Source: Ulota crispa
Lineage: Eukaryota > Streptophyta > Bryopsida > Orthotrichales > Orthotrichaceae
NCBI GenBank assembly: GCA_963920765.1
Contig: OY987249.1
Location: 14,260,817-14,324,816, forward strand
Reading direction: 5' to 3'
Length of the DNA stretch: 64,000 nucleotides
Under the pieces are notes generated by a model. The model searched no databases and was not told the origin of the DNA. It worked only from the letters and a program-made list of their open reading frames with translations. The translations under genes and the position numbers were made by a program. Positions 13,718 through 53,822 of the stretch are shown in pieces (positions within the stretch are counted from its first letter, which is position 1; the number at the start of each line of letters is the position of its first letter).

Positions 13718-14852
13718 TTAACCCTTTAACCCCTGAGCGCCCCAGCAGCCAATATTGGTCGCTCAGTTTTGAAAAAAGAAGTCCATGTTTAACTCTTATC
13801 CTCTTCTTAATGGTAAAGTCAAAGGATTTGTATTTTTTCATGTACCTCTAGGCATGTGTCTACTATCACTCAAAAAAATTCAAGCTATTTAACTCTACTT
13901 AGGCAATACTTTTATTGGACTAAGTACACAAGGGTATGGATTTGAGTGAATATGGCCTAGGCGCTCAGGGGTTAAAGACCACACACATTTTCACAAAATC
14001 CATTACAAACCGGGGTAGTAGACTTGGATGTGCAGTTGAATCAAATTTGGACTTGATTTCAATAATCCAACCATACAAATGGGAACTACACCTTGTTTAC
14101 TATAAAGAATCAAAATTTCAACTAGATCTATTGTTGGAGATGAAATATTATAATGATCAAGTTGTAGATGGAAAATCTCTAGTTTTTGTGCTTTTATGGT
14201 TTTGGATCTTACTACTTCATACAAGCTTTGTTGGAGAAGAGCCTTATGTTTCTAAAGAGGGTTTCTCAACTTTCCAATGAGACTATTTTCACACAAAATG
14301 GATAAAAATAGCAATCACAAGGTGTTTCCAAGTGGACAAAAAGGGTCAAAATTCCTACTTTATTTGCTATGCAAAAACAATTTTACAAGAAAATTGATAA
14401 ATGCTATGGAGAATTCAATCGGTGAAAATAATAAAGAATTGGCCTTAAATGTAGGACTACAAATTTTTAATATGAAATGATAGGACCATTTCAATAGATC
14501 TTCAAATTTTACAATATTACTACTATTGTATAGAAAAACAATACAAGAATATTTCTTGAGGAATTTGAAAATTTTTAGAATTGCATAATTGAAATTTGAC
14601 ATTTTTCTTGGATGTTTGATGATCTGTCTTTGACCAAATATGGATACGTATTTTGAGGCCATGTTGTATAAGCATCATTATTTATCAACTCACATGTCTG
14701 ATTTCTTTGTTTTTTATTTGGTTGGATGCAAAATTCTTGTGAGCACAAGCGTTCTTCAAGACCGGTTTCCAAATTGTTGAATGAATTTACTCTATAAGCC
14801 AAAAATCACTCTCCCAAACCAAAATATGGTTTGGTGGGGTCTAAAGGGTTAA
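13718..14852. mobile_element. TTAA-flanked (piggyBac-like) MITE, outer element of a nest
   Basis: The left end reads TTAACCCTTTAA then AGACC after removal of the inner insertion at 13726-13975. The right end, reverse complemented, reads TTAACCCTTTAGACCCCAC. Both are bounded by TTAA at 13718-13721 and 14849-14852. There is no transposase. Open frames inside (such as 13936-14280) are AT-rich chance frames. Confidence 0.75.
13726..13975. mobile_element. TTAA-flanked MITE, GAGCGCC subtype, inserted in another TTAA element
   Basis: A 250-bp element with ends TTAACCCCTGAGCGCC and GGCGCTCAGGGGTTAA. It lies at a TTAA close to the end of the element 13718-14852 and duplicates that TTAA exactly. The interior is AT-rich without coding capacity. 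Confidence 0.85.
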
Positions 14853-15702
14853 GCTTGACTTTTGAAAGCAACCCCAGTCTCAAAATAATGGTGCATGAGG
14901 ATTAGATTCTAGACCAGTTTGGTTTTTTGTAAAGTACATCAAGATTAGATTCTAGACCAATTGATTTATGAGATATCAAATTTTTGTAAAATTGAATGTT
15001 TCATTACCCATATAGGCATATTCAACTTGCGCAAAGCGTGTGAGTGTATACTAGTAATGACTAAGTGCCAAGGCATTTAAGAATGCCAAAACAAAGCATT
15101 AAGGCACTTTGCAAGTGAAAGAGCAAAGTGTCCAAGATATTTTTCAAGTGAAGACCAAGTGAATAGAGGTACTTTGCACAAGCTAAAACAAAATATTCAT
15201 GGTGTACTTTACACATTAAAAAACATATTCTAAGTAGTTAAGATTTGTAGTGGCACTGTGTGGTGTGCCATCACATACCTCAAAATGGCTTAGAATTAGA
15301 GGCCTCTTTCTAAGTATCAATTGACATGGTTGGCAAAGGTTTAGAACAAAGAAGCACATTACCTTATGAAGTGTTCAAGATAAGAACAACTTGCTAACTT
15401 ATTTGGGTGCATATTCAAGAGAATCAAGACTCACTTTACTTACATGTGAAGCTAACTTGTAAAGTTTACTTTTTTGAAAACCTCCCTTTTAAACCTGTAC
15501 ATATTACAATTCATTTCAATACGAGAAATTTAGTAATAAAGTTGACAATCATAATAATTCTTAGGTCACTTGACCTCCTTTTCCCTTTTTGTACCTTTTC
15601 TTCTCCCTCCTTCACTCCTCTCTAATAAAAGAATTTTGAACTCTTGGTATCAGTACAAAATTTTGAATATTACCTAACACACAAACACTTACGGCTTTAT
15701 AA
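14853..15702. other. AT-rich intergenic DNA
   Basis: No gene, RNA or element with two ends was found. Several repeated AAGTGCCAAGGCA-like words near 15060-15140 may be remains of a repeat. Confidence 0.4.
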
Positions 15703-15704
15703 TA

Positions 15705-16042
15705 CAGTGGTGCTTGGTTAGCGTCAACCTTTGTAAGAGCAACAATTGGATAAAATCACAACTTCACTCCCCTTTTGCTCAAATGCATGTATTATGAGCT
15801 TGGTTAAAGTGAAGTGTTTGCATATGGTCAATGTTTTCTTTTCATCAATTCCCATTTTGACTCTTTAGATAGAAAGACATTTGGTTAGTGTCCCAAAAAC
15901 ATGGATGGGAAAGCACCTCCAAAGTTGCAACCCCTAGAACTAGGGAAAGTAACACAAATGGAGGGTTTGTTTATGATCAATGCTTGGATAAAGTCAACAC
16001 TTTCTACAAGAGCTAAGTGTTGACGCTAACCAAGCACCACTG
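15705..16042. mobile_element. pogo/Tigger-type MITE with TA target duplication
   Basis: Long terminal inverted repeats, CAGTGGTGCTTGGTTAGCG at the left and the same sequence inverted at 16024-16042, are flanked by TA on both sides. CAG termini with TA duplication fit pogo-like Tc1/mariner elements, and a pogo-type transposase remnant lies at 3746-5680. Whether that protein family moved this MITE is inference. Arms are nearly perfect over about 25 bp. Confidence 0.8.
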
Positions 16043-16202
16043 TACAGATATGAAGAAAGTGAAATAAATAAATAATATCAACTATGTCCAAAATGTTTGT
16101 TCATTCATTATTGATTACTTATACTACAACAAAGCAATAAGAGATTTTGAGAACATTCAAAAATACAAGTAGGTATTTATAGAGACCCCTCATATTGAAA
16201 AA

Positions 16203-16640
16203 CTACACTAAATATTGCATTTAGGTTGCCCCACACTAATTTCTCAACATTTCACATTATGTAAATATTAACTGTTGCTACAAATATTTTTCATCAAAAA
16301 TTACTGCAATAAACCATTTTTAAAGGGCTTGTCAACACTAATGAAGCTACAAAAAAATAAACTAGCTACTTCCAAGGCATAAATCATACGAAATCCAAGT
16401 ATTTAGAGAGTTGCATCCTAATTTTACAAGTGGCCAAATGATGAGTCATGAGGTAACTTAGGATATGTTTGCACCTTGTATTAGGAGGGGTACTAGCAAA
16501 AGAAATTAGATGCATTTGAACACACCTTTAGACTACATTCATGTTGCCAAAACTCCTCCTAACATCAAATGTGAACATACCCTTACCAAGGTAAGCCAAC
16601 TTGATTGTCAAGGCAACCTAAATGCAATATTCAATTTACC
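16203..16640. mobile_element. MITE of the CACCAAATAGTGCATTTAGGTTGCC family (degenerate copy)
   Basis: Left end ACACTAAATATTGCATTTAGG with TTGCC; right end GGCAACCTAAATGCAATATT. The internal TTCTCAACATTTCACATTATG block is shared, in inverse orientation, with the copies at 36511-36806 and 37627-37943. Confidence 0.7.
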
Positions 16641-16653
16641 AGTATATAAATTA

Positions 16654-17048
16654 GGGAGTGATTAGGTGGACACCCCCTAATTGCTACGCGGACACCCCCA
16701 TAGCCAAATCTATTAAATTAGAGATTATTATTATGTTGAAATATGAAATAAAATCAAAAAAATATTTTTGTGTACATTTACATTTACAAGTGCTGCAAAC
16801 ATACAAAAAATTTGTCTCATTTGTGACACGGTCAAGAGTCAAACCAATTGCTCCCTTCATTTACTAGTTTGACTCTTGACTGTGTTACAAATGAGACAGA
16901 TTTATTATATGTTTGTAGCACTTGTAAACATAGATGTACACAAAAACATTGTTTTGATTTTATTTCATAGTAATAATAATCTCAAATTTAATAGACTTGG
17001 CTATAGGGTGTCCGAGTAGCAATTGGGGGTGTCCACCTAGTCGCTCCC
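16654..17048. mobile_element. Near-palindromic MITE with 8-bp target duplication (hAT-like)
   Basis: A 395-bp foldback element whose two halves pair almost throughout: GGGAGTGATTAGGTGGACAC at the left, GTGTCCACCTAGTCGCTCCC at the right. The flanking 8 bp ATAAATTA is a perfect duplication. An 8-bp duplication suits hAT elements, although the termini are not the classical CAGGG. A second copy lies at 57185-57586. Confidence 0.85.
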
Positions 17049-17579
17049 ATAAATTAGTGTGACCTATAAAAAAATAATAATAATAGGATGACCAATTCAA
17101 TACAACGGCACCCGTTCATCAATTAGGGTTACGATTTTCCGCATTTCCCGTTCGACTTCTTCTCAAATTTTGCGAGTTTCGCAATCAACTCTGCCGAGAT
17201 TTTGTTCCTCGCACGCAAATCTTTAGCTCCTCTTCCGATTCCAGGCGCATTTAATTCTTAGAACCGATCCCGCGCTCCTTTTACGCTTTTTCTCATGCCT
17301 TTCTTACGATATTTTTAGTGCACTATCTCGAAAACTCGAACTGATTTCAATCGAAAAGCTACAAATGTTAAGGATTTCAAAATCCTCTTCGTCTGGAATT
17401 AAGATGCATGTCGCACGGTCTTATTTCTGTTCTACATGAACTTATTTGAATAGAAAACCGCGTTTCTTTTAGTCTTACAAATAGTTTTTTCGTAAAGCAT
17501 GATTTTTAAGAAGAGTTATTGCTGCTGATTTCGTGTGAGAACGAGAATTTGTACTTGGAGAAAAGATACTGTGTGACAA

Positions 17580-20500
17580 ATGGCTACATCCTTTGTCCGA
17601 CTCTCACAATTCGTTGCGGGAACTCTGTCTCTTTCGCAACACCGCACTCGGCCTCTGTTGAAAAACTCAATTCGTCGAAATAATTCTTTAAGAAATAATA
17701 TTCACAGTTCGTTCTCATCATTGGATTGCTCGCCTCGCTTTGGAACCGGAATTGTGGAAGAGCTCCATCATCGCCGTCGTGTTGATGTTGTTGCTGGAAG
17801 ACCGCTGCTTGAGACGTTTCAGAGAAGGCTTGAATGTTGTTGTTGTTCTGCTTCGAGTAATGGAGGATCCGCTTTTTATTCTGCATCTGTAGCTGCTGAA
17901 GAAGTGCCTGGTAAGCTTAGGACCTCTTTTTGCTTGTGTTATGCTTTTTTGCATTTTCTCGGAATTTATTCAATTCTTCATTTTTGTGACAACATGATTA
18001 AATTTTATCGTCGAACATTTTGAGGCGTATTTTCACATCATTTTCTTCGTAGTTTTATGTTACCTCATTTAAAAAAATTAAAGATTATACTAAAACAAGC
18101 CAAAAAAGCTGAAGTCTTCTCAGCTGATTGTATTAAGGTAGCAGCACCCAGAACCGTCAAATTGAGGGTTTTGAACATGATGATTATTAATAAACATCTA
18201 GCGAATTATAGGATCCTATTACCAAGAGATAAAATGATGAGTTTACACTTTCGAATGTATTATTTGGATACTGCGAATAAGTTGTGAATTTTTAAAGGTT
18301 TCATGTTCACATGTTATACTGTACATCCTTGTAATTACATTTATTTACTTCCACAGATTTTCCAAAATTTCAGAGGTGATGGTTATGGGTACAGTGATGG
18401 TTATGGGTGTTGCTACTGTAGTATTATATTACCTCATTTTTTGAATTTAAAGATTATATCAGAACAAAGGCAAATAGACTAGAGTTTTTCTCAGCATTAT
18501 CGGGTTTTACCATTCCTTCTGTTTATTTGATTTGATTTGACGTTTTGACATTGAACTTGAAGGCTTAAACTTCTTTCTAGTTCTTATTGATTTTGATGAA
18601 TCTAATTCTGAAGAACATATATAGAAACTTGTATTTGACACAGTTCGAATGAAAAATTTATTGTAATGGAACAGTCTTCATGGAAGGGCTAATTCCAATA
18701 AATTAATAATTCAATTTTGATAGGGTTCCCAGTTCTAAGAACTGATTGACATTGTCATTATTTCGAACTGAAATTGATATTTGTTATTTGAGAGGGCCTT
18801 CTGGCATATAGGGGTTAAATACTTGCATACTTGAGCTCTACCGTAGTTTATAAGAATGCTCATTCACAGCTTAACCCTGTAGGACCAAGAAGTACAACTT
18901 GGGGCTCATAATTATTTCAGAGGTTTTTGGTAGGTTATAAGGGGACTTGGTTTTGTTCCTTTTTTTTACCAACAAACGCAATGTTTCTCATTGCTCTTTT
19001 TTTAAATATTATAATTGACTCCGTCTGAATTATATTTTATACCTGAATCTATAGTTTTGAGGATATGATTCCATTGAATTGATCAGTTGAAAAGCATGAA
19101 ATCCTTGGTCATGCAGAGGGTTTAAATGTTTTGAATGTGACAATGCCGACTGTGTTGGCTTGTGAAGCAGAATCAGTAGAGAGCATTCCAGTAGTAACTC
19201 CGCTGTGTGAGCGTCCTGCAACACATGTGACGTGCTTGGAAGACCTGCTGCAGTGGAGGAGGAAGGCCGAGCTTTTAGCAGCCAGTGTAGGAAGAGAATT
19301 TTTCGAGGCAGATGGAGGGCCAGATGCAAGTGATCTTCTGAGGGAGTTGGAGTGGCTTCTCGACGATGCCGTAGCCGCCTGTTGTCGGCGTGGTCGGAAA
19401 GTGGATGACTCCAGTTCTAAATGCTGGCAAGCATGCAGCTGGAGAGATGTCAAGGCTTGTTTGCCTGTGGAAACTTTGCCAAGTCTAGGTGAGGGATACA
19501 GTCCTCCAGCTTCTCTCAATGCTGCAAGATGGTTGTGAAATTTGAAGCTGTAAAACCTAACAAACAGTGGGGCTTCAGAATAGTGTTATAGCGCTTACAA
19601 AATATATTATTACAACTAATAACACAAACATTTTGTAAAATAATAAGACTTTGCCAAGTTTAAGTGAGGGATACAGTCCAGCTTCTCTAAATGCTGCAAG
19701 ATGGTTGTGAAATTTGAAGTTGTAAAACCTAGGGAAAATTTCATGGATGCCCCTGAAGTTTGCAATATTTTCAGAGATTCCCCTGCTTTTTCAGAAATAT
19801 CACAAATACCTTTTGACCAAAAAATTTAGAAGTTTGTTTTGTTGTGCATGCCACTTCCCCTCTTCCTTTGTGCACACACTACTTCTTTCTTGTTATGCAT
19901 ACACACAAAGGAAGAAGCGAAGTGACATGCACAACAAAACAAACACCTGAAAAGTTTTGTTCCAAGGGTATTTGTGAAGTTTCTGAAAAAGCAGGGGTAT
20001 CCATGAAAATATGGCAAACGTCAGGGGTATCCATGGAATTTTCCCTAAAAACTAACACATAGGGTGGGCTTCAGAATCATGTTATAGCGCTTACTGTTTG
20101 TATTATTACAACCAATAACACAAACATTTTGTAAAGTAAGAAGTCATGGCAACGTCCTCTTGCAAAAATTACCAGTTTGTATGTGATTGTGCTACGCAAT
20201 CAAATCTTAAAACTGGTTCCCAAAGCAAGTCACAGGGCAAGAGCTTTAAACGTCTTGATTATAGTTTCTATTATTAGATTTACCAAATATCATTGGATTT
20301 TGTTAGCAAGTGCGAGAAAATTTAAACACAATAGGGTATGCCTTATTTGGATATTATGTGCAGTAGTCACAAGAATTCAAAGTTTTTCTGGTAGAGATGC
20401 CCTAAACTTGGTTGTAATATTAGGTTGTGCACATTCTCAACCGCAGTATGTACTCACTAAGGCAAGATTTTAGGGTACTTTATTTGGATACATGTTGTAA

Positions 20501-23294
20501 CTTGATACACTACCTCAGGAAGTCTTCACATTGTCTACAATACAACTTGAGTGGCGCTAGTTATGTTCAATTTGGCTATTTCTGGTATGAGATTTTTGAA
20601 GACGTTTTTTTTCTCTGAAATGCAGATAGAAGCAGTGCTTCAACCGAATCTGCAGATGTGAATCTTGAGTTTGGGGTGTTTGGGACTCTATTAAAGGAAA
20701 GGTACACGGACCCAGTGGCGGAACTAGCAGCAGATGTTGGCTGCTCCTGTGACTCCTTACGAGACAGCCTAGCGAACATGGCATCCGTGGATCCAGACGT
20801 GACAATGGAGAGCTCCTCATCTGCAGCCACGACTTTTCCTTCCTTGGATGATACATTTGAAAACAAGACCACAAATACACATCTTCTATTGCGTTCCAAC
20901 ATTGAAGACCTGGAGCATCAGTGGACGCAAAGAGTGAGGGACAGGAGGCCGTTTCAGTATGTCGTGGGGTGTACACACTGGAGAGACTTGGTTTTGAGTG
21001 TTCAAGAGGGGGTTCTGATTCCAAGACCAGAAACCGAGCAAATGATCGACCTTGCCGAAGCTGCAATTGCTGCAGAAAACTCTCTTGGTGATGGAGTATG
21101 GGCGGATTTGGGAACTGGTAGTGGTGCTTTGGCTATTGCTTTGGCTCGTCTCCTTCCTTCCACTGGGTCAGTTATTGCTATCGATGCCAGTGAAACCGCC
21201 GTTGCTGTTTCTCGCCGCAATGTGAGCCAGTATGGGCTTATGGTAAGCGCGTGCTTTTACAATCAACTCTTTATCATTTTTCTTTTTTTATGCTAATGTT
21301 GGTCACCGGAGATAACTTTATTCAATTACTTTTAGGATGGGAAGGAGTAGGTCTCGCTGCATATTTGTTAATTAATTCTGGTTTACACGACCTCAGGCCA
21401 ATAAAGCAGCTATAAAAGCTATGCTTGTCAATCGAGTAGGTGATTTCGGATTAGCTCTCGGGATGATGGGTTGTTTTACTATTCTTCAAACAGTAGACTT
21501 TTCAACTATTTTTGCTCGTGCCAGCACCTTTTCTGAACCCCATCATTATTTCATTTTTTGCAATATGAGATTTCATGCCATAATGGCATACTCTGTGTTT
21601 TACATTCCCTGCATATCTGCAGACTCTGTCTTTTGTATTCACATCTGATTGGATACTTGCACTTGTCAAGTTCGTGAAATTAAGAGTGCTAGTAAAAGCT
21701 CATTTCTCCTTTCGAGACAATGTTCGTAAAGACAGTTGTATGTATTCATCTGTAGGGTCTCTCTGTTTTGCATGACTCTGCCCAATAAATAGTGTGCTAA
21801 TATGGTCAAACCCTTACTAGGGATTATAAGAAAATCAGACTATTTCAAGGACTTAGCCTCGTTATTTAAAGAGAATCTTCCCCATGGAGAGACCTCTCGA
21901 TGACAGACATGGAGCCTTTATACTAGTACGACCATGAAGAGATTCTCCCTTGGGGGAGGTTCTCTTTATTATGTTTCCTAATCGTTTCTAAAACAGTCCA
22001 ACTTTGCTGAAAATCTATTTCTTTTGTTACTTTCTTATTTCGTACAGTACAAGTGAATGTGATGCTCTATTCTCTATGGCTTAGGCTGTTCTTTTTTATG
22101 CTAATGGCATTTGTTTCTTCTGGAATTTTTTCCAACAGGACCGAGTGAAAGTTGTCTCTGGCTCGTGGTTTACGCCGCTTGAGAATTACAATGGCTCTCT
22201 GGCAGGAGTGTTGAGCAATCCTCCTTATATACCTTCGGAAAACATACCTGGACTTCAAGCTGAAGTAGGAAAGCATGAGCCGCAGTCTGCTCTAGATGGA
22301 GGAGAGGATGGCATGAATGACTTGCCCACCATATGTCGAGGGTCTTGTCGTGCTCTCAGATCCGGTGGCTTTCTTGCATTAGAGGTATGTTTTTCCTCCA
22401 CGGAAGGTAATCATACCTAATTGCACAACTTATTACGCTGATCATGTTTTCTACTAGAACGTTCACAAATTTCGAATACTTGAAAGACGATTCCAACGCT
22501 TTCAAAGAATGTATTATTTTGATACCACACGTTAAGTCTACAAGGTTTTAAAAATCGATTTGTAGACGATCTAAAACCGACAAATAATTTGTTGTTGACG
22601 TGGTTTATAGTCTGAAAATCAACATATAAACTCATTATTGTATAAGAGTATGTGTCACATTAAGCTAGGCGTTGCAATTAGCTGTTGTAGCCTTTCTGGC
22701 TATATACAGTACCTTCTCAAAAGGAATTGCCACCGAAAATTCCTTACCATTCTGTAATGCCCTCACAAAATACCATCGTAATGAAGCAGATATAAGATTA
22801 AAAAATTGCTTAAAGACTATACTATACACTTCCACGGTTTTAGGACAAGTTTTTTAGGAACATTCACAAAAAGGAATTTGGTGTGGAAATGAATTTGCTA
22901 ATGGTATTATGACGAGGTGCGACAGTTATTTTTGATAGGGTACAGGACAATTCGAGTGACGTGTCTAGACGTTAGTTTTCTGATTATGTAAAGAAAACTG
23001 CAAGTAAATATTTCTTATTTGTTGAATCGTGTTTACCAAGTTCACTTCACGGATTCTTTGCTATAACATCCGTTGTTTTAGACAGGTTTACCTTGTATGG
23101 CCTCTGATATTTCGACCTTGTTTTGTCTGTAGACCAATGGTGGAAAACAAGCCGAGGCTGTCTCCAATCTGCTGCACAGTTTGACGACTGTGGGGGGTTT
23201 TCAAACCAATACACCTGTTCCTTGCTTCAGGGATATCCGAATTATACCAGACTTTGCCGGGATAATGCGGTTTGTTGTAGCCACTCGTTGCTGA
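17580..23294 (+). CDS. HEMK: Organelle-targeted release-factor glutamine methyltransferase (HemK/PrmC family)
   Basis: Five exons, 17580-17910, 19117-19488, 20626-21242, 22139-22384 and 23133-23294, join in frame with GT/AG borders to give 575 residues. HemK/PrmC enzymes use S-adenosylmethionine to methylate the Gln of the GGQ motif in peptide-release factors. Seen here: PFQYVVG about 343-349, IPRPETE about 366-372, the SAM-binding LGTGSG about 396-401, and the signature NPPY at 467-470, followed by IP. Bacterial PrmC has about 280 residues. The extra ~300 N-terminal residues begin with a Ser/Arg-rich, acid-poor stretch typical of a plastid or mitochondrial transit peptide; a Cys/Trp-containing domain I do not recognise follows. 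The family call is firm; which organelle is not visible. The introns carry MITEs, a tandem duplication and a nad5 fragment. Confidence 0.92.
18136..18418. mobile_element. TA-flanked AGGTAG-type MITE in intron 1 of HEMK
   Basis: Left end AGGTAGCAGCACCC and right end GGGTGTTGCTACT are bounded by TA on both sides. Internal blocks (GAGGGTTTTGAACATGATGA, TTTCGAATGTATTATTTGGA) are shared with the copy at 55739-56065. Confidence 0.8.
19473..20140 (+). repeat. Tandem duplication of the exon 2 / intron 2 junction of HEMK, second copy split by a MITE
   Basis: The segment from ACTTTGCCAAGTCTAGGTGA (19473) through AACACAAACATTTTGTAAAATAA (about 19645) is repeated from 19650 on. The second copy is interrupted at 19731 by the MITE 19732-20045 and resumes at about 20046, ending near 20140. 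The duplicated unit of about 178 bp includes the last 16 nt of exon 2 and its GTGAGG donor, so a second donor-like site (TTTAAGTGAGGG) lies at about 19660. Confidence 0.85.
19732..20045. mobile_element. Mutator-like MITE with 9-bp target duplication
   Basis: A 314-bp foldback with GGGAAAATTTCATGGATGCC at the left and its inverse GGTATCCATGGAATTTTCCC at the right. Flanks TAAAACCTA and TAAAAACTA match at 8 of 9 bases. Same family as 44561-44871 and 56707-57021, each also with a 9-bp near-match. The loop contains a pairing GTGTGCACAAAGGAAGA-type stem. No coding capacity. Confidence 0.88.
21290..21535 (+). pseudogene. nad5: Nuclear copy of a mitochondrial nad5 fragment (NUMT) in HEMK intron 3
   Basis: Translation gives [20 protein letters not shown], and after a one-base deletion near 21381, [15 protein letters not shown] and [19 protein letters not shown]. 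This matches a conserved membrane segment of NADH dehydrogenase subunit 5. About 80 codons are present, without start or end, inside an intron whose splice sites belong to HEMK. It is therefore a non-functional fragment transferred from mitochondrial DNA. The frameshift and the ILQ and LLG variants show it has drifted. Borders were set where similarity fades and are approximate. Confidence 0.9.
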
Positions 23295-23470: not shown

Positions 23471-24394
23471 ACCAGATAGTGTATTTAGGTTGCCCCATAC
23501 TAATTTCTTGACATTTCACACTATTTAACTATTTACCAGGACTACAATAACTTTTGTCAATAATCATTGATAAACAATGGAGGAAGCAAGTAGAGGTTGA
23601 GCACAGCAACAAGTGCCAAAGTCAAGGAGCAGGGAAGCTGGAACTTTTGACAAAACTAGAAATTATTGTAGCATAACGAGAGTTGCATGCTCCTCCAAGT
23701 GGCCAAGGGTGAGTCATTAACCCCTAAATGCCCAAGCGACTAGATTTGGGTTGCGAGGAAACATTGAAGATAAATAAAATCTTATCAAATCATTATTTTT
23801 AATATTTTTTTTTAATATAAGTTTGTTTTTGAGTCTACTTTCAACATTAAAAATCTGATTTTGAAAATAAAAGTTGATGATTTTTCTACTTGAGATTTTG
23901 TACAAGGGTGTCCATTGCAATCTTGAGTTTTCTAGTGTTGGAAGATCTTAAAAATGAGCTTCAAAGACACTAGAGCTTGGAGAAAAATCCACATTAGAAA
24001 TCCATTTAAAAATAATGTAGGAGTAGATTTTCAAAACAGTAAATTGATTTGAGTTAGACATGTAATGACCTTAAACCTCATATTTTTATGGTCACCAACT
24101 TTTTGGATTTGACATATGAAACAAGGATTGGGAGAATTTAAGTCACTTTTGCAAGTTTAACACCCTCATGTTCAAACATTATAATCTTTCAAACTATAAG
24201 TGATATTGTTGTATTTTCTTTTTCCATGTAATCTCTAACATGTTTAGCTTAAATTTGTACGGTTACAATTGAAAAAAACTTGATGAAATTCATGAAGAGG
24301 TTGATTGATTGTTCAATTTCATGAAAAGTCCAAGCTTCTCAAATAGGGCTTGGACATTTAGGGGTTAAGGCAATCTAAATGCACTGTTTGGTGT
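23471..24394. mobile_element. MITE of the CACCAAATAGTGCATTTAGG family, split by a TTAA element
   Basis: Left end TACACCAGATAGTGTATTTAGG and right end CTAAATGCACTGTTTGGTGTA, with TA at each side. The TTAA element 23717-24368 sits inside it. Removing that insertion rejoins a copy of about 270 bp similar to 37627-37943. Confidence 0.82.
23717..24368. mobile_element. TTAA-flanked MITE, AAATGCCC subtype (652 bp)
   Basis: Ends TTAACCCCTAAATGCCCAAG and CTTGGACATTTAGGGGTTAA in a TTAA-bounded insertion. The interior shares long stretches with 38020-38670 (for example GTGTCCATTGCAA and TTTCTAGTGTTG then GAAGATCTT), which is almost the same length (651 bp). There is no transposase frame. Confidence 0.88.
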
Positions 24395-24887: not shown

Positions 24888-25818
24888 TTAACCCTAAAAA
24901 GACCCAAGCCCATTTTTCTGTGGAAATCATTGACAACTGTCACTTTTGGGGGAATGATTAAAAAGGTAGGAAAATTTGTTTTTTTTTTGAACTGTAGGAT
25001 CTTGCCCTAGACTATGGGAAGTACTTGTGGGAAAAAAATCAGCTCATTCTAAATGTAGAGGAGTGAGATATTGACATCTAAGGTGAAAAAAAAAGTTTTT
25101 TTTCCCTGTTATCCAAAAATTTCAGAAGCCTTTGATAGCTCCTATATCAAAAAAGTTGCCCTACGCAAAGTTGAGGTTTTTTTTTCCCATGTAAAAGATC
25201 AAGTTAGGTAAGTATGGAAGAGTTTTCAAATGAATTGGAGGTGTGGATCATACTTTGTAAAATCTTGCAATACCATATGTCATGAAATTTGCATATACAC
25301 TAGGCAAAATTGGAGGATATATGTAAATTTCAGAAATTTGAATTATTGTGATTCAAATGGTGAAAACCAAGGAATCTTAGTCTCTTACAACTTTAAAAAA
25401 AAGTCAAAAAAAAAGTACACAAATTGCTCAAAAAAGTAAAGTACCAAATTTTACAAGGGGCAAAAAGAATGGAGGTTTGGGAGTCTCATACCTACCCGCA
25501 AACTAAAACTTCTCATAACTTTCATCTTTGATTCAAAACTTTCCACATATATACAAATCTAAAGACCTAGTTCCAAATTTTTATTTTTAAAAAATGGATT
25601 TTTTTTTTTGAACTGCTCCATTCTCCTTTGTTTTCCAATTATTGATGCAGTTCTTCAATAAATATTGGAATGAAGAAAAAATTATATGCCCACACAAATC
25701 TTTGAATTCCCCATCTTCCATACAAGTTCCAGAAAATCACACAAAATAGTTTAGTTGTAAGTACATACTCAAAACCCCACTTGGCCCCCAAGGGACCACT
25801 TGGGCCTTTAGGGGTTAA
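24888..25818. mobile_element. TTAA-flanked MITE, AAGACCC subtype (931 bp)
   Basis: Ends TTAACCCTAAAAAGACCCAAG and CTTGGGCCTTTAGGGGTTAA. Blocks such as GATCTTGCCCTAGAC and GTACTTGTGGGAAAAAAATCAG return in reverse orientation in 46539-47472 (934 bp). Confidence 0.85.
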
Positions 25819-26670: not shown

Positions 26671-26743
26671 TCCGTTGTAGTCTAGAAGGTTAGGATACTC
26701 GGCTCTCACCCGAGCGACCCGGGTTCGAGTCCCGGCAACGGAA
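26671..26743 (+). tRNA. trnE-CTC: tRNA-Glu (CTC anticodon)
   Basis: 73 nt fold into a full cloverleaf. The acceptor stem TCCGTTG pairs with CAACGGA, followed by discriminator A. The D-loop holds GGTTAGGAT. The anticodon stem CTCGG/CCGAG encloses loop CTCTCAC with anticodon CTC (26705-26707). The T-arm CCGGGTTCGAGTCCCGG holds the invariant TTCGA. An oligo-T run at about 26768 fits a Pol III terminator. There is no intron and CCA is not encoded, as expected for a nuclear gene. The sequence is what I recall for plant cytosolic tRNA-Glu. Confidence 0.97.
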
Positions 26744-27728: not shown

Positions 27729-28554
27729 GAATTGATATGTGCACACCAAGGCACACCGGAGGGTTAATTTTAGATATTTATCAACAAGTGGGTTTTATAA
27801 ATTTTGAATTCAAATTTGGATTTAGAGACCTTGGTATGGTCTAGAACTACAAATGAAGTTACAATTGAATAACATCCAATGGAAAAGCTTAGTATTTCTA
27901 CAAACAAGGATAAAAGTAATAATTTTACCCCGTACTTTGTTTTTTCCATTAAGCACAAATCAATTGTAACCTCATTTGTAGCTCTAGAGTAGTTCAAGAT
28001 CTCTAAATCCATGTCTAAATTCATAATTTTCAAATTCCACTTGTTGATATGATGCATGACACTTAAGGTCAAAGGTTCTAATTCCAATTAGGTTCTATTT
28101 GTGATCAGCTCTAGGAACATCTGACATTTTACAAGAAATATCTATTACTATCATTGATGAATTAGGTAGGCTTAGCATATTGCTAAGCCTACCTAATTCA
28201 TCAATGATAGTAATAGATATTTCTTGTAAAATGTCAGATGTTCCTATTGATCACAATTTGAGCCTAATCAAAATTAGAACATTTGACCTTATAACCAGCA
28301 ACTCTCAATTCAAGTGGTCAGCCTAAGGCTTTGTCAAAAAAAGTTATCAAAAATTCAAGTCCACTAAAATTTAAGGTTTCTCCCGCTTGGTGGTGGAATT
28401 ACTTTTGAGCTAATGAGTATATGTGTTGTGTTTTAATATTTCTTGTTTGGCCAATGGTTGTTGGTTATAATTGTCATGCACTACAATATAAAACTAAAAT
28501 CTTCACCCCTTGTGCACATATGTCTAACCCTGAATGTGCACTTATCAATTCCTT
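27729..28554. mobile_element. Large foldback element with long perfect central palindrome
   Basis: Ends GGGAATTGATATGTGCACA and TGTGCACTTATCAATTCC are inverted copies. Further inward, GTCAAAGGTTCTAATTC pairs with its diverged inverse near 28270-28285. The centre, 28112-28177 against 28181-28246, is a perfect 66-bp inverted repeat around a 3-nt spacer. Outer arms have diverged while the core has not. About 826 bp, no coding capacity. Confidence 0.85.
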
Positions 28555-28721: not shown

Positions 28722-29079
28722 TTAATCCTTAAACACCAGGGCCCATAGTCGTGGCTTGCACTACACTATACAACTACATTGGTCCAACCTATAGTATTGC
28801 TTAAAAAAGTGGGAAAAGTCAATTGTGCATACTGCCCACATGAAATTTGTAAGAAGGGCATGAGGGGACTTATCAACCATGGTTGTGAATGTTCTCACAA
28901 ATTTCGGTTTTGAAAACATGAGGACTTTCAATCAATCCAATTTTGGCACTCCGTGGTGAAGAACCTTGCAATGACCGATTTTGAAAAAAAATTGAAAAAA
29001 AAAGCTTTTTTTCAACCCCCAGATTGTTTTTTTTGTACCGAAAGGACGATAACCGTCCGCTTCGACCTTTAGGGGTTAA
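28722..29079. mobile_element. TTAA-flanked MITE (358 bp)
   Basis: Ends TTAATCCTTAAACACC at the left and GACCTTTAGGGGTTAA at the right, bounded by TTAA. AT-rich interior without coding capacity. The inverted repeat is weaker than in the other copies. Confidence 0.7.
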
Positions 29080-38019: not shown

Positions 38020-38670
38020 TTATCCCCTCACCGCCCAAGGGGCCCAAACTAGGCCCCTCTGAATTTTATTTAGGGATGCTCAACCTTTCTACAAGATTTT
38101 TTTAGTGATTATTATTATTATTAAATTCTTGTTGAAGTCTAGTTTTAGCATCAAGAGTCTGATTTTGAAAATGGGTTAAAGTGATTTGTCTATTCAAGAT
38201 TTTGTGCAAGGGTGTCCATTGCAAATCTTCACTTTCTAGTGTTGAAGGATCTTGGAAATGAGCCTCAAGTACACTAGAACTTGGAGAAAAAATCACATTA
38301 AAAATTCAATTAAAAAAATTGTAAAATAGATTTTGAGAAGTCGTAAATTGATTGGGGTTATGCATGTTATACTTTACATACTCATGTTTTTTTGGTACCC
38401 TCAATTTTAGGTTTGAGATGCAAAATGAAGATCGAAAGACTTCAAATCACTTTTGCAATTTTAACACCCTCATGATCAAACATTATAATCTTTCAATCCA
38501 TAAATGATATTGTTGTGATTTCTTTTCCTATGTGATCTATACCATATCTATTTTGAATTTGTATGGTTGCGCTTAAGAGAATTGATAAGATTGATCAAAA
38601 TGCCAACATTTTGTTCACTTTCAAGCAAATTTTGAGATACTAAAAAACACCATGGGCGGTGAGGGGTTAA
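38020..38670. mobile_element. TTAA-flanked MITE (651 bp), sister of 23717-24368
   Basis: Left end TTATCCCCTCACCGCCCAAG, with TTAA mutated to TTAT. Right end TGGGCGGTGAGGGGTTAA. The interior aligns along most of its length with 23717-24368. There is no transposase. Confidence 0.85.
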
Positions 38671-40476: not shown

Positions 40477-40478
40477 AC

Positions 40479-40885: not shown

Positions 40886-41669
40886 TTAACCCTTGAGCGC
40901 CCCAATGCCCCATATATTGCCTCCCACTATTTCAAAGCCTTGTTTCAAGGGACTAGATCTAACTTTTTGGTCTTGCTACAAACTACAATTATGAAGGCAT
41001 TCAAGTTGTCCATGCCAATGGAGTAATGGCAAGGAAAGCCAAATGTTGTACAAGTGTTGCAAGAGATTTGATTGGGTGAAACACCATACGGGGAGTGGTG
41101 GCAAGCATATGGGGCGTGGTGATAAGCAATGTTTTATAGGCTGCAATTGGTCAATGTCCCTTACAAGCTTCCTTGTGTAAGCTTTGTGGTAGTGGGAAAG
41201 TTGTTGGCAAGGGTTCAAGCATGTTCTAGACCCTTATTATGGCAACCATCACCAATTGTGCCGGTCATTGTACTCCGTGCAATAGCCATTTGAAGCCCTA
41301 AAACTTGACATAAAAAGTAGTGCAATCTTCAATAGTTTACAAGTGTGTGCATTCACATCTAATCTTGTTGCTCACAAAATTTGAGATGAATCCGAGGCTT
41401 ATAGAATTTTGTAAAAATCATCAAATAGCAACTACCTACCAAAAAATGAGGTTTTGTCATCACATGTTGTTTGATCAAATGTTATAATCTTCCATCTCCC
41501 GCAGTGAATAGTTCTCTAAATTTGCAAGCCATTTTCTAAGTAGGTGTTCCACTATTTTCAATGGTCATTTTTTGTGGATTGTCTGATTGACCAAGATACA
41601 ATGCATCAAAGTTGTCGGTTTCCAAAAACCCCGATTTTTGTGAAAACAGCCTGAGCGCTCAGGGGCTAA
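40886..41669. mobile_element. TTAA-flanked MITE, GAGCGCC subtype
   Basis: Left end TTAACCCTTGAGCGCCCC. Right end GCGCTCAGGGGCTAA, whose last bases (CTAA) are shared with the next element. Interior without recognised coding capacity. Confidence 0.78.
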
Positions 41670-41904
41670 CCCCTGAGCGCCCCACAGGCCAAAATGTGGC
41701 CTCTCCATATTTGACGGTTTGTTGTCTTTGATTGTTATAATTTGCAACAAAAACCTACCAAATTTTTCATACATATGCGGACCGTAAGCCTCTTGCAATA
41801 TCAACGGCTAACTATTCTAAATGTTGTTTTTGAACTTGTGGTGCCAAATTGTTTGCAATGAGGTCTAACATTGCATGAAATTGGGCTAGGCGCTCAGGGG
41901 TTAA
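41666..41904. mobile_element. TTAA-flanked MITE, GAGCGCC subtype, abutting the previous one
   Basis: Left end CTAACCCCTGAGCGCCCC, right end GGCGCTCAGGGGTTAA, 239 bp. Shares one target tetranucleotide with 40886-41669. Confidence 0.82.
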
Positions 41905-43066: not shown

Positions 43067-43067
43067 T

Positions 43068-43435: not shown

Positions 43436-43767
43436 CCACATTGAATATTGCATTTAGGTTGCTTTGACAATTAGATTGCCTTACCTTTGAAAATTACCTC
43501 ATTACTCATTATTTGATCAATTGGAGGCACAACTCTAAATTTAGGATTTTAAATGGTTTACAACGTAGAAGTCATTGATTTGTTTCTGTGTAGCATCATT
43601 GTTGTTGCTAGACCCGTTAACCTGTAAATGCCCACTAGATCAAATTTCAGTGTAAAAAAAACACTAAATTCTAGGACATTGGGCATTTAGGGTTTAAAAT
43701 TTTTACATTACATTTATCAGTGATGGAAGCCTGGGACAACCTAAACACAATATTTAGGTGTAGCATA
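43436..43767. mobile_element. MITE of the CACCAAATAGTGCATTTAGG family hosting a tiny TTAA element
   Basis: Left part CATTGAATATTGCATTTAGG followed by TTGCTT; right part GACAACCTAAACACAATATT then TAGGTGTAG. Split by 43617-43697. Confidence 0.7.
43617..43697. mobile_element. 81-bp TTAA-flanked element made almost only of its terminal repeats
   Basis: Left end TTAACCTGTAAATGCCCACTA, right end GGGCATTTAGGGTTTAA. Inner arms (AGTGT, then a run of A, then ACACT) also pair. At 81 bp it is the smallest TTAA-bounded member in the window. Confidence 0.75.
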
Positions 43768-44316: not shown

Positions 44317-44544
44317 TTAACCCGTAAGCGCCCAGAGTTGAAACGAATCAAAGTGCCCATGTGAACTGAAAAATACGATCCATAAGATCCGATCATATGA
44401 ATTGTTAGTGGAAAGAGTCTCCATCATGCTGAGTTTGATTGGAAGTCGTTTCACCGGACATTCAATGAGATTATAATGGTCAAAATTGAGTTGACTTAAC
44501 TTTTTGAGCAACATTATACTGTCGCCTGGGCGCTCAAGGGTTAA
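44317..44544. mobile_element. TTAA-flanked MITE (228 bp)
   Basis: Ends TTAACCCGTAAGCGCCC and GGGCGCTCAAGGGTTAA. Its right TTAA is followed at once by GGCAACCTAAATACAA, a remnant of the GGCAACCTAAATGC MITE end. It therefore probably sat inside such a MITE. Confidence 0.82.
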
Positions 44545-44560
44545 GGCAACCTAAATACAA

Positions 44561-44871: not shown

Positions 44872-44881
44872 TATATACAAT

Positions 44882-45836: not shown

Positions 45837-45838
45837 TA

Positions 45839-46465: not shown

Positions 46466-47629
46466 TTAACCCTTAAAGGACGATAGGACATAGTATATAC
46501 AGTGCCGTATAATTGGTATTTGCTACCAATAAGAAGTTTTAACCCCTACATGACCGTTGTCCTTTTGGGGGACAATTGGGATTTTGGGCATGTACCTATG
46601 GCTAAACTACTTTATGTAATTTTTTGAAACTTTTATGGAAGATGTGGAATTCAAAAATCTATATGGACATTTAATTTTTTCCTCATTTTGACATTTGACG
46701 AAGAATTTATGCAAAAAATTTTGCTGCCTGGGGAAGGGAGGGCAATCCGGGCAGCCCAAAAACTTCTTTAAAATTTGTATTTTTTAAAAATAAAAATTTG
46801 AAACTGGTTCTTTATATTTTTTTTATGTGGAAAGCTTTGAATCATTCCATTTCAATTAGTGAGATGAAAGTTATGAGATGTTTTAGTTTGTAGGCAATTA
46901 CGGATCCTCTACTCTAAAATAAACTTTGAAGTCCTTTATTTTCCCCAATTTTCAATATTTTGGAAAAAGAACTATACCTAAGGAAGTAGATTGTTTATGA
47001 CAACATTATGACTGTTGGGATTTGCATTTTTCATTTCCATAATTAAATTCTTAACAATTTAGTGTTTTGACTCATTCTCTAATTCTTCTTACTTACTACT
47101 TTTTTTGCATGTGTTATATTGTTCCAATTGATTTGAAAATTCTCTAATACATGCCTAACTTGGTATTCTACATAGAAAAAATAAACCTCAACTTTGTGTA
47201 GCAGAATATTTTTCATGTAAGAGTGGTCAAGGGCTTCCGAAATTTTAGGACATCTTGGAAAAAATCATTTTTTTTCACTTCAGATGTAAACATCTCCCTC
47301 CTCTCCATCTAGAATGACCTGATTTTTTTCCCACAAGTACCTCTTCTAGTCTAAGGCAAGATCCTATAGTTGGATTTCCCAAAAAAAAAAACCTACCTTC
47401 TTACTCATCCCCTAGAAGTGGCAGTTTTCAGTGATTTTGATAGAAAAAAGGGCTTGGTCCTTTAGGGGTTAATTTGGGATCTCAAGTAGTCTACTACAAC
47501 TACTTTGATCTATTTTTCAACTTCTTTGTTGATCTCAAATGCAATAAAGATGTGAATCTACTCCAAATACAAGAAAAATACTCTGTATTCTACTTGTTGC
47601 AGGGGCACGCTCCGTCCTTTAGGGATTGA
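46466..47629. mobile_element. TTAA-flanked MITE, AAAGGACG subtype, host of another TTAA element
   Basis: Left end TTAACCCTTAAAGGACGATAG, right end CCGTCCTTTAGGGATTGA (TTAA decayed). Removing 46539-47472 leaves about 230 bp that align with the uninterrupted relative 52724-52965. Confidence 0.85.
46539..47472. mobile_element. TTAA-flanked MITE (934 bp) with a confirmed TTAA target duplication
   Basis: Ends TTAACCCCTACATGACCG and TTGGTCCTTTAGGGGTTAA. Flanks read AAGAAGTT then TTAA, and TTAA then TTTGGGATCT. The relative at 52724-52965 reads AAAAAGTTTTAATTTGGGAT without insertion. This demonstrates duplication of exactly TTAA. Sister of 24888-25818 in inverse orientation. Confidence 0.92.
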
Positions 47630-47654
47630 GCTAGTCCTATTTTTTGAGTGGATA

Positions 47655-49767: not shown

Positions 49768-49769
<2 letters not shown>
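48766..49769. other. AT-rich intergenic DNA
   Basis: About 1 kb with no supported feature. Confidence 0.4.

Positions 49770-49852
<83 letters not shown>
49770..49852. repeat. (TA)n microsatellite, about 80 bp
   Basis: About forty uninterrupted TA/AT dinucleotides. Open frames through it on both strands (runs of Ile-Tyr) are artefacts. Confidence 0.97.
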
Positions 49853-49857
<5 letters not shown>

Positions 49858-50351
49858 TGAAAAAACATCACAAATAAATGTTAACGTCATAAACTCAGAA
49901 ATAAAATTCTTGGGTGTAATGGACATTCATTTGACATAACTGTTCAACACATAAAAAACTCATCAAAATATAAGAAATACGATAGTGGAAAGAAAAATCA
50001 AATCAGCTTCAGTTCTATAATACTTGAGGTACCTCTATATTATAAAGTCTCAAGTGTGTGTTTGTCATGCAATATTCAAAAAGTATTATTAACACCAAAA
50101 GTTCAGATTTTTATTATTGTAAAGCATGAGGAATTTGTCCCATCATCCAAAATTTGAAATTCAATCGAAGAGGAAGGAGAGGAAAAAAAAGGAATAGGAA
50201 GGTGAAAATTCAGACAAAATTAAGAGAAGCATGACGCAAAGCTCATGCCTAAATATACTTGTTTTAAAATAAAATAAAAGAGAACGATATTTTTGTTAGC
50301 TTAGAAAACCCAATATTATTTTAGATATTCTCCCTTGATTCAAATTTAATA
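49853..50351. other. AT-rich intergenic DNA
   Basis: Nothing recognised. Confidence 0.4.
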
Positions 50352-51048
50352 TACTACACCAAATAGTGCATTTAGGTTGCCTTAGCAATATGGTTGCTTA
50401 CCTTGTCAAAATTACCTCATGATTCACCCTTGGCCACCTAGAGGGACATGCAACTCACTTTATTACAATAATTTAAAATTTTGTGTAAAATTCAACTTTT
50501 GTGCTCCATGACTTTGGCACTTGTTGCTGCGCCCAACCTTTGCTTGCTTCTTCCATTATTTATCACAGTAGGTACTAACAAAAGTTACTATAGTATGGAG
50601 CTTGGAGAAAAATCCAGGTTAAAAACTTATTTACAAATATATATTGTAAGAGTAGATTTTGTAAAGCTATAAATTGATTAAAATTAGACATATAATGACC
50701 TTAAACCTCATATTTTTTTGGTGACCAACTTTTTATATTCTACATGTGAAATGAGGATTGGAAGACATCAAGTCACTTTTGTAGTTTTAACACCCTCATG
50801 TTCAAATATTATAATCTTTCTAACTATAAATGATATTGTTGTGTTTTCTTTTCCATTTAATCCCTAACATGTTTAGTTTAAATTTGTACTATTATAATTT
50901 AAAAAAACTTGATGAAATTTATGAAAATGTTAGTTGATTTTTTAATTTTGTGAAAATTCCAAGAAGCTTAGAAAGGCCTTGGGCATTTAGAGGTTAAATA
51001 GTGTGAAATGTCTAAAAATTACTATAGGGCAATGTGAATGCACCAAGG
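50352..51048. mobile_element. MITE of the CACCAAATAGTGCATTTAGG family with a truncated TTAA element inside
   Basis: Left end TACACCAAATAGTGCATTTAGG. The right part (ATAGTGTGAAATGTCTAAAAA, GGGCAATGTGAATGCACC) is degenerate. Between about 50598 and 50997 lies the right two-thirds of an element like 23717-24368, ending GGGCATTTAGAGGTTAA. Its left end is missing, so a deletion followed the insertion. Confidence 0.75.
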
Positions 51049-51443
51049 TTTTGATTTTTTGACCAATGGCTATGTGGCATTCTTTGAAAATGGTTTGTAG
51101 CTTGCAGGCTCCATTCCTATTTTGATTGGAGTTGAAGGTGGCCCTATGCATGAAATTTTGGAGCATCATGGGATTTTTTTTATACCCAAAAAGTATGGGT
51201 TGGCCTTTTTTATGAAAATATCCAAATAACTATTGACATTGCTTAATTATTGCATGGAATTTGGATTAGACAATACCTCAAACAATTTTAAAATGATGGC
51301 ATCAATTGTCAATTTTGATAAGAATTTTATGAAAGCCTAGGTAGCAATGCAATTTTCATTATTACAATCTGGCATTTTTTGAAAAAAATCCCCCTTTTTT
51401 TCTATAGGCTTGAAGCTAGCCTTTTTTTGAGGCAATTGGGCCT
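51048..51443. mobile_element. hAT-like MITE copy (inverse orientation), cut by a TTAA element
   Basis: Reverse complement of the family at 40479 and 54106 (GAATGCCACATAGCC, CCATGCATAG, GGCAATTGGGCC). It stops at the TTAA of the element 51444-52727, exactly where the other copies read GGCCCAATT preceded by TTAA. Confidence 0.7.
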
Positions 51444-52070
51444 TAACCCTTTAAGTCCCAAATAGTGTTCTTTGGGCTGTGTAGTGATTTTGGGCAGGTC
51501 ACTACAAATGGATTTTGCATTTGTTTTTTATTTTATTTTCACACATGAAGTATCCAAAGAGTAGCTTTAAGGCCCAACAATTTTCATAACTTTGGACTAC
51601 ATGGTTAAAAAGTTATTGCATGATTTGTTGTTCTCTTTGCTCGTCAGGGCAGCTCGGGCAGCTCCAAAACTTATTTAAAAATTACATTTCAAGTTATTTC
51701 TATTTCAAATTGGTTCTTTAGATCTACATATAGGTGGGAAGCTTTGAATCATTCAAATCACATTAATGAGATGAAAGTTATGAGAAGTTTTAGTTTGCAG
51801 GTAGGTGTGGAGTCTCTCAAAAAACATACCTACCCGCAAACTAAAACTTCTCATAACTTTCATCTCATTAATGGGAATTGAATGATTCAAAGCTTCCCAC
51901 CTATATGTAGATCTAAAGAACCAATTCAAATAGAATATAAAACTTGAAATGTTATTTTTAAATAAGTTTTTGAGCTGCCCGGGCTGCCTTGATGAGCAAA
52001 GAAAACAACAAATTATGCAGTAACTTTTTAACCATGTAGTCCAAAGTTATGAAAATTGTTGGGCCTTAAA

Positions 52071-52601
52071 CACGAGAAGAAAAATAGGGATAAACGACTA
52101 CCACAAATTGCCACGACTAGGTCACAATAACTGCCTTACAATTGCACAATAACTGCACAACATTTGCACAACTACAATCTAGTCGTGCAGTTGTTTTGCA
52201 GTTGTTTGTGCAGTAGGAAGGCAGTTATTGTGGCCTAAGGTAGGAACACCCATTAGCGTGAGTGTCCCCATAACTGGCACCTCTAAAATCTTGAAAAATT
52301 TGTAGAAGTAAATAGATGTAATTACAAGGATGTACAACATGTGAACATGAAACCTTGGTGTTGGTGATGGGTGCAATGGTAGTTTGCTCTTTAAAAATTC
52401 ACAACTTATTCTCACAGTATCCAAATAAAACATTCAAAAGTGCAAACTCATTATTTTTTTGTTGCTAATAGGATCCTATAATTTGCTAGATGTTTATTAA
52501 TATTTATCATGTTCAAAACCCTTAAACTAACGCTTATGGGTGTTCCTACCTTAGTTGTGGCAATTTGTGGCAGTTGTTTATGGTGTGTTTTTCTTCTAGT
52601 G
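52071..52601. mobile_element. CACTA MITE with AAA target duplication, hosting a TA-flanked MITE
   Basis: CACGAGAAGAAAAATAGGG at the left. The right end in reverse complement is CACTAGAAGAAAAACACACC. Flanks are AAA on both sides. The host's other arm reads CCTTAAAGCTAC with a single AAA, giving an empty site. Inner GCCACAAATTGCCAC-type motifs pair. There is no coding capacity. Confidence 0.9.
52238..52551. mobile_element. TA-flanked AGGTAGGARCACCC MITE, innermost of a three-level nest
   Basis: AGGTAGGAACACCCATTAGCG at the left, CGCTTATGGGTGTTCCTACCT at the right, with TA on each side. The host CACTA arm reads GTGACCTAGTCGTGG with a single TA at the equivalent place. Confidence 0.9.
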
Positions 52602-52723
52602 AAAGCTACTCCTTGGGTACTTCATGTGTGAAAATAAAATAAAAAACAAATATAAAATCCATTTGTAGTGACCTACCCAAAATCACTACACGGCTCAAAA
52701 AATGCTGCTTGGGCCTTGAAGGG

Positions 52724-52965
52724 TTAACCCTTAAAGGACGAGGCTAGTATTATACATACTGTGTACGCTGCTGTATAACTGGCATATATTACTAACAAAA
52801 AGTTTTAATTTGGGATCTTGACTACCTCACTAGAATAACATTGATCTATGTTTTAATTTCTTTGTTGATCTCAAATGTAATAAAGGTGTGGATGCACTCC
52901 AAATATAAGAAAAATACACCGTATTATATTGGTTGCAAAGGGCTGCCTTGTCCTTTAGAGGTTAA
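52724..52965. mobile_element. TTAA-flanked MITE, AAAGGACG subtype, uninterrupted copy
   Basis: TTAACCCTTAAAGGACGAGG at the left, TTGTCCTTTAGAGGTTAA at the right. Shares its left TTAA with 51444-52727 and its right TTAA with 52962-53822. Acts as the empty-site reference for 46539-47472. Confidence 0.87.
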
Positions 52966-53822
52966 CCGGCCTCTCTAATTTGTGAGTTCTATAAATAGAT
53001 GCACAAATTAACTAATTAGCTTCTAGGAGTATGCACAAATTAAGCCCACTTTCCCTTTACTAAAAAAGACCGCATCAACATGTGAGCATCAAAGTTGAGT
53101 GTGATGCAAATAATGAAGCTGACGACGACCTCCCTCTAGTCTTGCCTCACCATCTAGTTTGTCTCCAACCTAAAGACTTGAATTCTATTGTCTAGAATTT
53201 TTGAGCACAGTTGCAACATTCATGGGACAAGCATACCATTGTTGACATTGAGCAAGATTTTTATACCCTCAAGGTTGCCTACTTGAGTGAATTGGTTTTG
53301 ATTGTATCATTGGATGGTTGCAACAACATTGCAACTTTGTCTCAAGAAGCTTGAAAGATTGTCAAAGGCTGCTTTGAATCACTATGCAACTTTTGTGGCA
53401 GCATAGCCACCATGTTCCTTGACATTGCCATAGTTCAATCCAACTTCTCTATTCCTTAAACTTTCAAAGGATGAGCATCATAAATCGTTAACTGACCTCT
53501 CGCTTGAGGGGGTGTTACAATGCAAGTAGTTCCATGCCTTGTCGCTACAAGAAAAACATTGTCAAATCTACAAAAAGCTAACAAAAATTGTGACCTAATC
53601 TATAGTATACTGTAGATTAGGTCATAATTTTTATCAACTTTTTGTAGATTTGACTATGTTTTTAACTATGATATGTCACAATTAATTTGATATCAAATAT
53701 GCGCATAACAAAACTTAGTTTGTTAACTTGTGACAATGCACAAATTAACTTTCATGATGTGCACAAATTAGCTTAATTTGTTAATTTGTGACAAAACGTA
53801 AATTAGAGAGGTTATGCGTTAA
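52962..53822. mobile_element. TTAA-bounded element with ACCTCTCTAATTT arms
   Basis: Left TTAACCGGCCTCTCTAATTTG. The right end, reverse complemented, is TTAACGCATAACCTCTCTAATTT. Related GCACAAATTA words occur in both arms. It contains the smaller palindrome 53546-53675. The termini differ from the CCCTNA type, so it may be a separate TTAA family or a coincidence of neighbours. Confidence 0.55.
53546..53675. mobile_element. Short palindromic MITE (about 130 bp)
   Basis: AAAAACATTGTCAAATCTAC at the left pairs with GTAGATTTGACTATGTTTTT at the right. The core GACCTAATCTATAG / CTGTAGATTAGGTC forms a hairpin. The left end CTACAAGAAAAA is reminiscent of CACTA termini. Confidence 0.7.

Follow-up and report, generated by a model that had tools for sequence, protein, structure and literature searches.

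TTAA-bounded elements in the window

The 64,000-nucleotide stretch of the Ulota crispa genome analysed here (the window; contig C8:14260817-14324816 in an assembly of 274.8 Mb and 157 contigs) contains a series of short elements that begin with TTAACCC(C/T)T and end with the inverse, and that had been attributed to the piggyBac superfamily of transposons. We scanned the window for both kinds of end and then paired them. This resolved 12 elements that are bounded by TTAA and have inverted ends; they measure 81-1285 bp and include three nested or abutting pairs (Table 1). Exact TTAA flanks were present on both sides of 9 of the 12, while the elements at 38020, 40886 and 41666 had a single substitution on one side, the mutated site being common to the latter two. 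There were 16 end pairs when overlapping alternatives were included. First-order Markov shuffles of the window gave no end pair in 17 of 20 cases and one in the other three, so the pairs are not a product of chance. The elements are short and non-coding, with inverted ends and a high copy number, as is typical of miniature inverted-repeat transposable elements (MITEs).

The original prediction had counted at least 14 such elements. Thirteen of its 15 listed starts fell within a paired element, but 12 elements resulted. Seven starts were exact to the base (13718, 13726, 23717, 40886, 46466, 46539, 52724), the one placed at 51444 was a base late (51443 is exact), and those at 24888, 28722, 38020, 41666, 43617 and 44317 were near matches to the motif. 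A truncated element expected at 50598 was not recovered, as the motif is not present there. The start at 28722 had a weak partner at 29079 (12/20 alike), and 46539 and 46466 were rival left ends of a single right end. We also considered 13718 and 13726 as two start choices of one element and ruled this out, since the element starting at 13726 lies inside the end of the other. Once this inserted copy is removed, the outer element reads TTAACCCTTTAAAGACCACA at its left end and, as the reverse complement, TTAACCCTTTAGACCCCA at its right. Reuse of TTAA as a target was seen in this nested pair and in the pairs 51443/52724 and 40886/41666, with similar cases at loci L012 and L021. With its inverted ends and two long internal hairpins (130 nt at 94% and 102 nt at 96%), the 51443-52727 element has a foldback-like layout.

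Table 1 Elements of the window and transposase features of the genome. Positions without a contig name are window positions.
Feature	Position	Strand	Length	Remarks
Outer element, TTAACCCTTTA... ends	13718..14852	.		Interrupted near left end by 13726-13975
MITE, GAGCGCC subtype	13726..13975	.	250 bp	Sits in second TTAA of outer element's end; TTAA both sides
MITE, AAATGCCC subtype	23717..24368	.	652 bp	TTAA both sides
Element, AAAGACCC/AAAGGCCC ends	24888..25818	.	931 bp	TTAA both sides; ends 14/20 alike
MITE, CACCGCCC subtype	38020..38670	.	651 bp	Left site TTAT, right TTAA
MITE, GAGCGCC subtype	40886..41669	.	784 bp	Right site mutated (CTAA)
MITE, GAGCGCC subtype	41666..41904	.	239 bp	Adjoins 40886-41669, tetranucleotide in common
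Minimal element, AAATGCCCA ends	43617..43697	.	81 bp	Ends 15/18 alike; TTAA both sides
MITE, AAGCGCC/GAGCGCC ends	44317..44544	.	228 bp	
MITE, AAAGGAC subtype	46466..47472	.	1007 bp	Alternative left end 46539
Element	51443..52727	.	1285 bp	126-bp inverted ends (89%), two further internal hairpins
MITE, AAAGGAC subtype	52724..52965	.	242 bp	One TTAA in common with 51443-52727
Complete transposase element	C2:17807089-17812653		5,565 bp	TTAACCC...GGGTTAA
Complete transposase element	C6:4681416-4686971		5,556 bp	TTAACCC...GGGTTAA
Complete transposase element (L073)	C8:11338621-11344224		5,604 bp	TTAACCC...GGGTTAA
PF13843 pair	C7:18203169-18204302 + C7:18223004-18224137	Opposite orientation		
PF13843 pair	C2:36765124-36766008 + C2:36779670-36780554	Opposite orientation		
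PF13843 pair	C10:676128-677234 + C10:785346-786452	Opposite orientation		

The termini proved to be abundant across the genome. Counting exact matches only, which makes these numbers lower bounds, TTAACCCYTGAGCGCC occurred at 2,479 places (1272+1207) and TTAACCCYTAAAGGACNA at 9,414 (4733+4681), with the reversed pattern at none in either case; named subtypes include GAGCGCC and AAAGGACC. We queried a further terminus, CCCYTGAGCGCCYA, without its TTAA, so that the target was not presupposed, and found it at 1,590 places (792+798; reversed control 1). The first 30 of these listed, all on contig C1, were preceded by TTAA in 24 cases, TTAG in 2, and TTGA, TCAA, CTAA and TATA in 1 each. The base before this tetranucleotide was unconstrained (C 11, T 8, A 7, G 4). 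The boundary is thus four bases long, since TTAA is kept and the fifth base is free. The inverted repeats themselves start with CCC (CCCTT, CCCTC and similar), as those of piggyBac do.

Target-site duplication was assessed at 33 complete insertions, whose flanks we joined around one TTAA and compared with retrieved genomic loci. The full-length transposase element L069 sits in a repeat whose L026 copies are uninterrupted and have a single exact TTAA at two places. These two paralogous empty sites support a duplication of TTAA, and with the 24 of 30 termini above they agree with the target and duplication of piggyBac. Rows for L022, window_40886 and window_52724 were neighbouring or self matches and went uncounted, as did L012 against L019, which was too short to judge.

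Tourist and Stowaway are well-known plant MITE groups in the portion of PMC10004981 consulted, and the window elements could in principle be Stowaway/Tc1-mariner-like (TA) or Tourist/Harbinger-like (TAA/TTA) MITEs that lie next to TTAA by coincidence. The TA or TWA duplication of Tc1/mariner and PIF/Harbinger MITEs was not what we found, as four bases are conserved with the fifth free and each element has the tetranucleotide placed symmetrically at its two sides. PF13843, described below, is also carried by transposase elements that have this tip. We consider such an origin next to impossible.

Transposase elements and the origin of the MITEs

Candidate piggyBac transposases were found in the genome. 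The GGVDxxDQ motif pattern matched at 20 places against 1 in the reversed control, and 16 of the 20 were piggyBac-like on reading; L062, L068, L077 and L078 were chance matches and were dropped from the transposase counts. All 16 places recurred in a DNA search with one transposase region, and the five checked in Pfam all matched PF13843 (DDE_Tnp_1_7, piggyBac; best 1.3e-47). A PF13843 search of the genome, in which 116 of 528 candidates were scored, returned at least 120 matches (best E 1.3e-73), four loci accounting for two rows each. Every listed row was above the cut-off and none of 14 control genomes matched. Ten of the 120 rows had no in-frame stop. The DNA search with one transposase region gave 31 matches, namely the region itself and 30 others at 66-77% identity. 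The piggyBac lineage here is old and diverse, and its elements are mostly decayed.

The catalytic residues of piggyBac are conserved. In an alignment with the protein of the moth Trichoplusia ni, D268, D346, D447 and D450 (moth numbering) were all present in L075 and L069; L061 had the four on two pieces split by a stop, and the L073 fragment, which covers D447 and D450 only, had both. A C-terminal cysteine-rich tail was read in L073 and could also be made out by eye in the frames of L063 and L074, while the other transposase frames end before this region. By sequence, the closest solved structures were piggyBat (E 3.6e-18) and piggyBac (E 6.6e-16). Some PF13843 matches formed pairs that score the same or nearly so, face opposite ways and lie about 14-109 kb from each other (Table 1), a pattern that suggests recent local inverted duplication or large palindromes.

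The window itself had been predicted to hold no transposase, and the searches agreed. None of the 120 listed PF13843 rows lies in it, tblastn with five transposase fragments and moth piggyBac found nothing there better than E 0.08, and blastn with the three complete transposase elements gave no match. The nearest PF13843 match, C8:14220647-14221627, is about 39 kb before the window.

We then read the flanks of 7 of the 16 transposase loci. No TTAACCC ends were present within 1.5 kb of the transposase motif, the true ends being further out. Three loci yielded complete elements, and four further 3' ends (TTAACCCTTTAATGACC, TTAACCCTTTAACAACC, TTAACCCTTTAACGACC and TTAGCCCTTTAATGACC) were all of the TTAACCC type, one as TTAGCCC. 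PF13843 transposases are therefore encoded inside elements with TTAACCC ends, and all seven elements have TTAACCCTT or TTAACCCTC, or a one-base variant, as the MITEs do. The best match was the 3' end of L073, identical to the GAGCGCC MITE terminus TTAACCCYTGAGCGCCCA at 17 of 18 positions, including 8 of the 9 after TTAACCCYT. The 5' end of L073 and the 3' end of L086 matched the AAAGGAC terminus TTAACCCYTAAAGGACNA at 16 of 18 positions, one free position counted. The full-length DDE_Tnp_1_7 relative that the original prediction had proposed to look for was thus found, and its call of the superfamily, based on target site and tips, was borne out. L069 and L073 both carry a subterminal repeat, ATGGTCAATT, set 17 bases in from one end and 30 in from the other, and L061 has it 30 bases in from its 5' end. 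This placement recalls the internal repeats reported for moth piggyBac in the part of PMC7351741 consulted.

We conclude, with a probability of roughly 95%, that the window elements are non-autonomous MITEs belonging to a large and diverse piggyBac set in a land plant, its ~5.6-kb members encoding a DDD transposase. The ends, the TTAA site, the single-copy empty site, the catalytic residues, the copy numbers and the nesting are direct observations. By analogy with moth piggyBac, the transposase of the ~5.6-kb elements, with its PF13843 and C-terminal cysteine-rich domains, would attach to the TTAA-CCC ends, cut the element out by way of TTAA hairpins and insert it at another TTAA, leaving every copy flanked by TTAA. 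Short copies that retain only the ends would be mobilised by it in trans, and the MITEs have probably moved in this way. The excision chemistry, the cross-mobilisation and present activity are inferred. A specific transposase among those with similar ends may be the mover of the window MITEs.

Several results weigh against this conclusion. An exact empty-site TTAA was found for one element only, with one-base variants for three others. At the L069 site two more paralogues deviate (L026 with a gap, AAA; L005 with TTAC). Six paralogous empty copies of the MITE L019 are all one base off TTAA (TTGA three times, TCAA, TTCA and TTAG), as are both empty sites of L011 (TCAA, TTTA); the single empty site of L021 reads TTAG and a weak paralogue (74%) of L048 reads AAAA. 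In-frame stops interrupt 110 of the 120 PF13843 rows, and the rows are profile matches. The end comparison covered 7 loci against the 120 PF13843 rows, and none of these seven elements ended in exactly the sequence of a common MITE subtype such as TTAACCCYTGAGCGCC or TTAACCCYTAAAGGACC; for 7 of 10 ends the best agreement with either the GAGCGCC or the AAAGGAC subtype was 13-15 of 18 positions, most of it within the first 8-9 bases. A palindromic internal repeat near the MITE ends, modelled on moth piggyBac and sought at about bp 17-33 in 43 filtered ends of 73, scored 0.654 against 0.625 and 0.620 at two control positions, which was not significant. Scores of at least 0.85 were reached by 2 ends at the test position and by 2 and 0 at the controls. 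We dropped palindromic internal repeats as a feature of the MITE ends, though some ends, at L012, L006 and the window element at 13726, look strikingly palindromic.

The TTAA target is common to the piggyBac, Kolobok and Sola3 superfamilies. The modest agreement of those seven ends would also suit MITEs of Kolobok or Sola3 that resemble the piggyBac elements at the tips only, and our transposase searches were aimed at piggyBac alone. Such an origin is nonetheless very improbable, given that all seven transposase elements share the MITE-type tips and one end agrees at 17 of 18 positions. CCCTT and CCCTC are moreover common tips of animal piggyBac elements in the part of PMC10813416 consulted.

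Scarcity of TTAA inside the transposase elements

TTAA is strongly depleted within the transposase elements. With their ends trimmed, the three complete elements contained 6 TTAA in 16.6 kb against 67.3 expected from a dinucleotide model and 28.4 from a trinucleotide model. It came lowest of the 256 tetranucleotides with either Markov model, at 0.09 and 0.21 of the expected number, and it was scarce before and after the transposase exons as well. The 3-kb loci around the transposase motif (L059-L076) had 0 to 6 TTAA in 15 of 16 cases; the other, L074 (21 TTAA), apparently lies partly outside its element but is kept in the count. TTAA was again the lowest tetranucleotide over these 16 loci (43 seen vs 221 expected). 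By comparison, 38 control loci, some of which overlap one another, had a median of about 24 TTAA per 3 kb and a minimum of about 12. GC-matched 1-kb pieces (n = 17) had 2.6 TTAA per kb vs 0.36 in the transposase elements, and 10 of the 12 window elements together had 41 vs 73 expected.

Our tentative reading, which we rate slightly below an even bet, is that the piggyBac transposase elements have rid themselves of their own target tetranucleotide through selection against internal TTAA, making them self-immune by sequence while the MITEs are still targets and become nested. An internal TTAA would allow insertion by sibling elements or by any of the thousands of MITEs that compete for the same transposase. 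Alternatively, stop-codon avoidance, base composition or shared ancestry could have produced the depletion as a side effect. TAAG and ATAA are low in the elements too, as expected if TAA stops are avoided, the copies have common ancestry, and in the window the dinucleotide model also makes TTAA mildly scarce (408 seen vs 584 expected), which the trinucleotide model (410) does not. Yet in the complete elements TTAA falls far below every other tetranucleotide under both models and outside the transposase exons, and it ranks 17 of 256 in the control loci and 8 in the window. Relatives of the transposase region are only 66-77% identical and the lack of TTAA persists, which argues that it has been maintained through much change. 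A mere by-product is a real possibility, but we are inclined to doubt it. A literature search aimed at such target immunity listed no report of it.

piggyBac in land plants

By its sequence we take the host to be a land plant, as had been proposed. A 19-base query that we take to be miR166 matched at 4 places in the genome (reversed control 0), and TTTAGGG repeats are present at the ends of contig C1. The window also carries a copia-like element and a methyltransferase exon, described below.

The best-studied relative, T. ni piggyBac (PDB 6x67, 6x68), shares with the elements described here the TTAA target and its duplication, CCC tips, a PF13843 domain with D268, D346, D447 and D450, the C-terminal cysteine-rich domain, and perhaps its subterminal repeats, which are likewise set unevenly with respect to the two ends. 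It differs in size, at ~2,472 bp (in the part of PMC10813416 consulted) vs ~5.6 kb here, probably with introns, and in its host, and the transposases are only distantly similar. The nearest solved transposase, piggyBat of Myotis lucifugus (PDB 9c0f), is mammalian.

The original prediction described piggyBac as little reported in land plants. This is fair in that the plant members are thinly described as far as the literature searched shows, but the superfamily is already known there and has been mentioned in print. PiggyBac is one of seven angiosperm MITE superfamilies in a passage of PMC10004981; these are likewise plant piggyBac MITEs, but the passage presents no elements, whereas the MITEs here number thousands of copies and can be linked to transposase elements in their own genome. 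A repeat table for the fern Ceratopteris has 1,230 PiggyBac entries amounting to 122 kb (PMC6890710), also a land-plant annotation, but a table row, with no anatomy or empty-site evidence in the portion consulted. The superfamily is likewise reported from plants in an excerpt of PMC8086355, which speaks of piggyBac-like elements "in plants" and refers to Bouallegue et al. 2017. A land-plant transposon review names six terminal inverted repeat superfamilies, and the word piggyBac is absent from the text searched (PMC9033089). Apparent matches to "piggyBac" in a Niphotrichum paper were the word "piggybacking". Within the passages searched, we found no anatomy of a plant piggyBac element and no report of TTAA depletion.

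The window contains several other features. At 28112-28246, a perfect inverted repeat of 66 bp around a 3-base loop is a possible source of hairpin RNA. A methyltransferase gene exon (20619-21296; Pfam methyltransferase families) is probably HemK/PrmC-like, and a tRNA-Glu (CTC) gene lies at 26671-26743. Remains of a Ty1-copia-like retrotransposon were present at 58700-62700, with one frame matching RVT_2 below the cut-off and the others recognised by eye.

With at least 120 transposase matches and about 12,000 exact termini of two subtypes, this genome shows that piggyBac can rank among the main components of a land plant's DNA, and source elements are now available for studying its biology in plants. 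The depletion of TTAA is the part that a specialist would not have expected. If the purge is real, it would amount to target immunity at the level of sequence, and it raises the testable question of whether target-specific transposons evolve to lack their own target.

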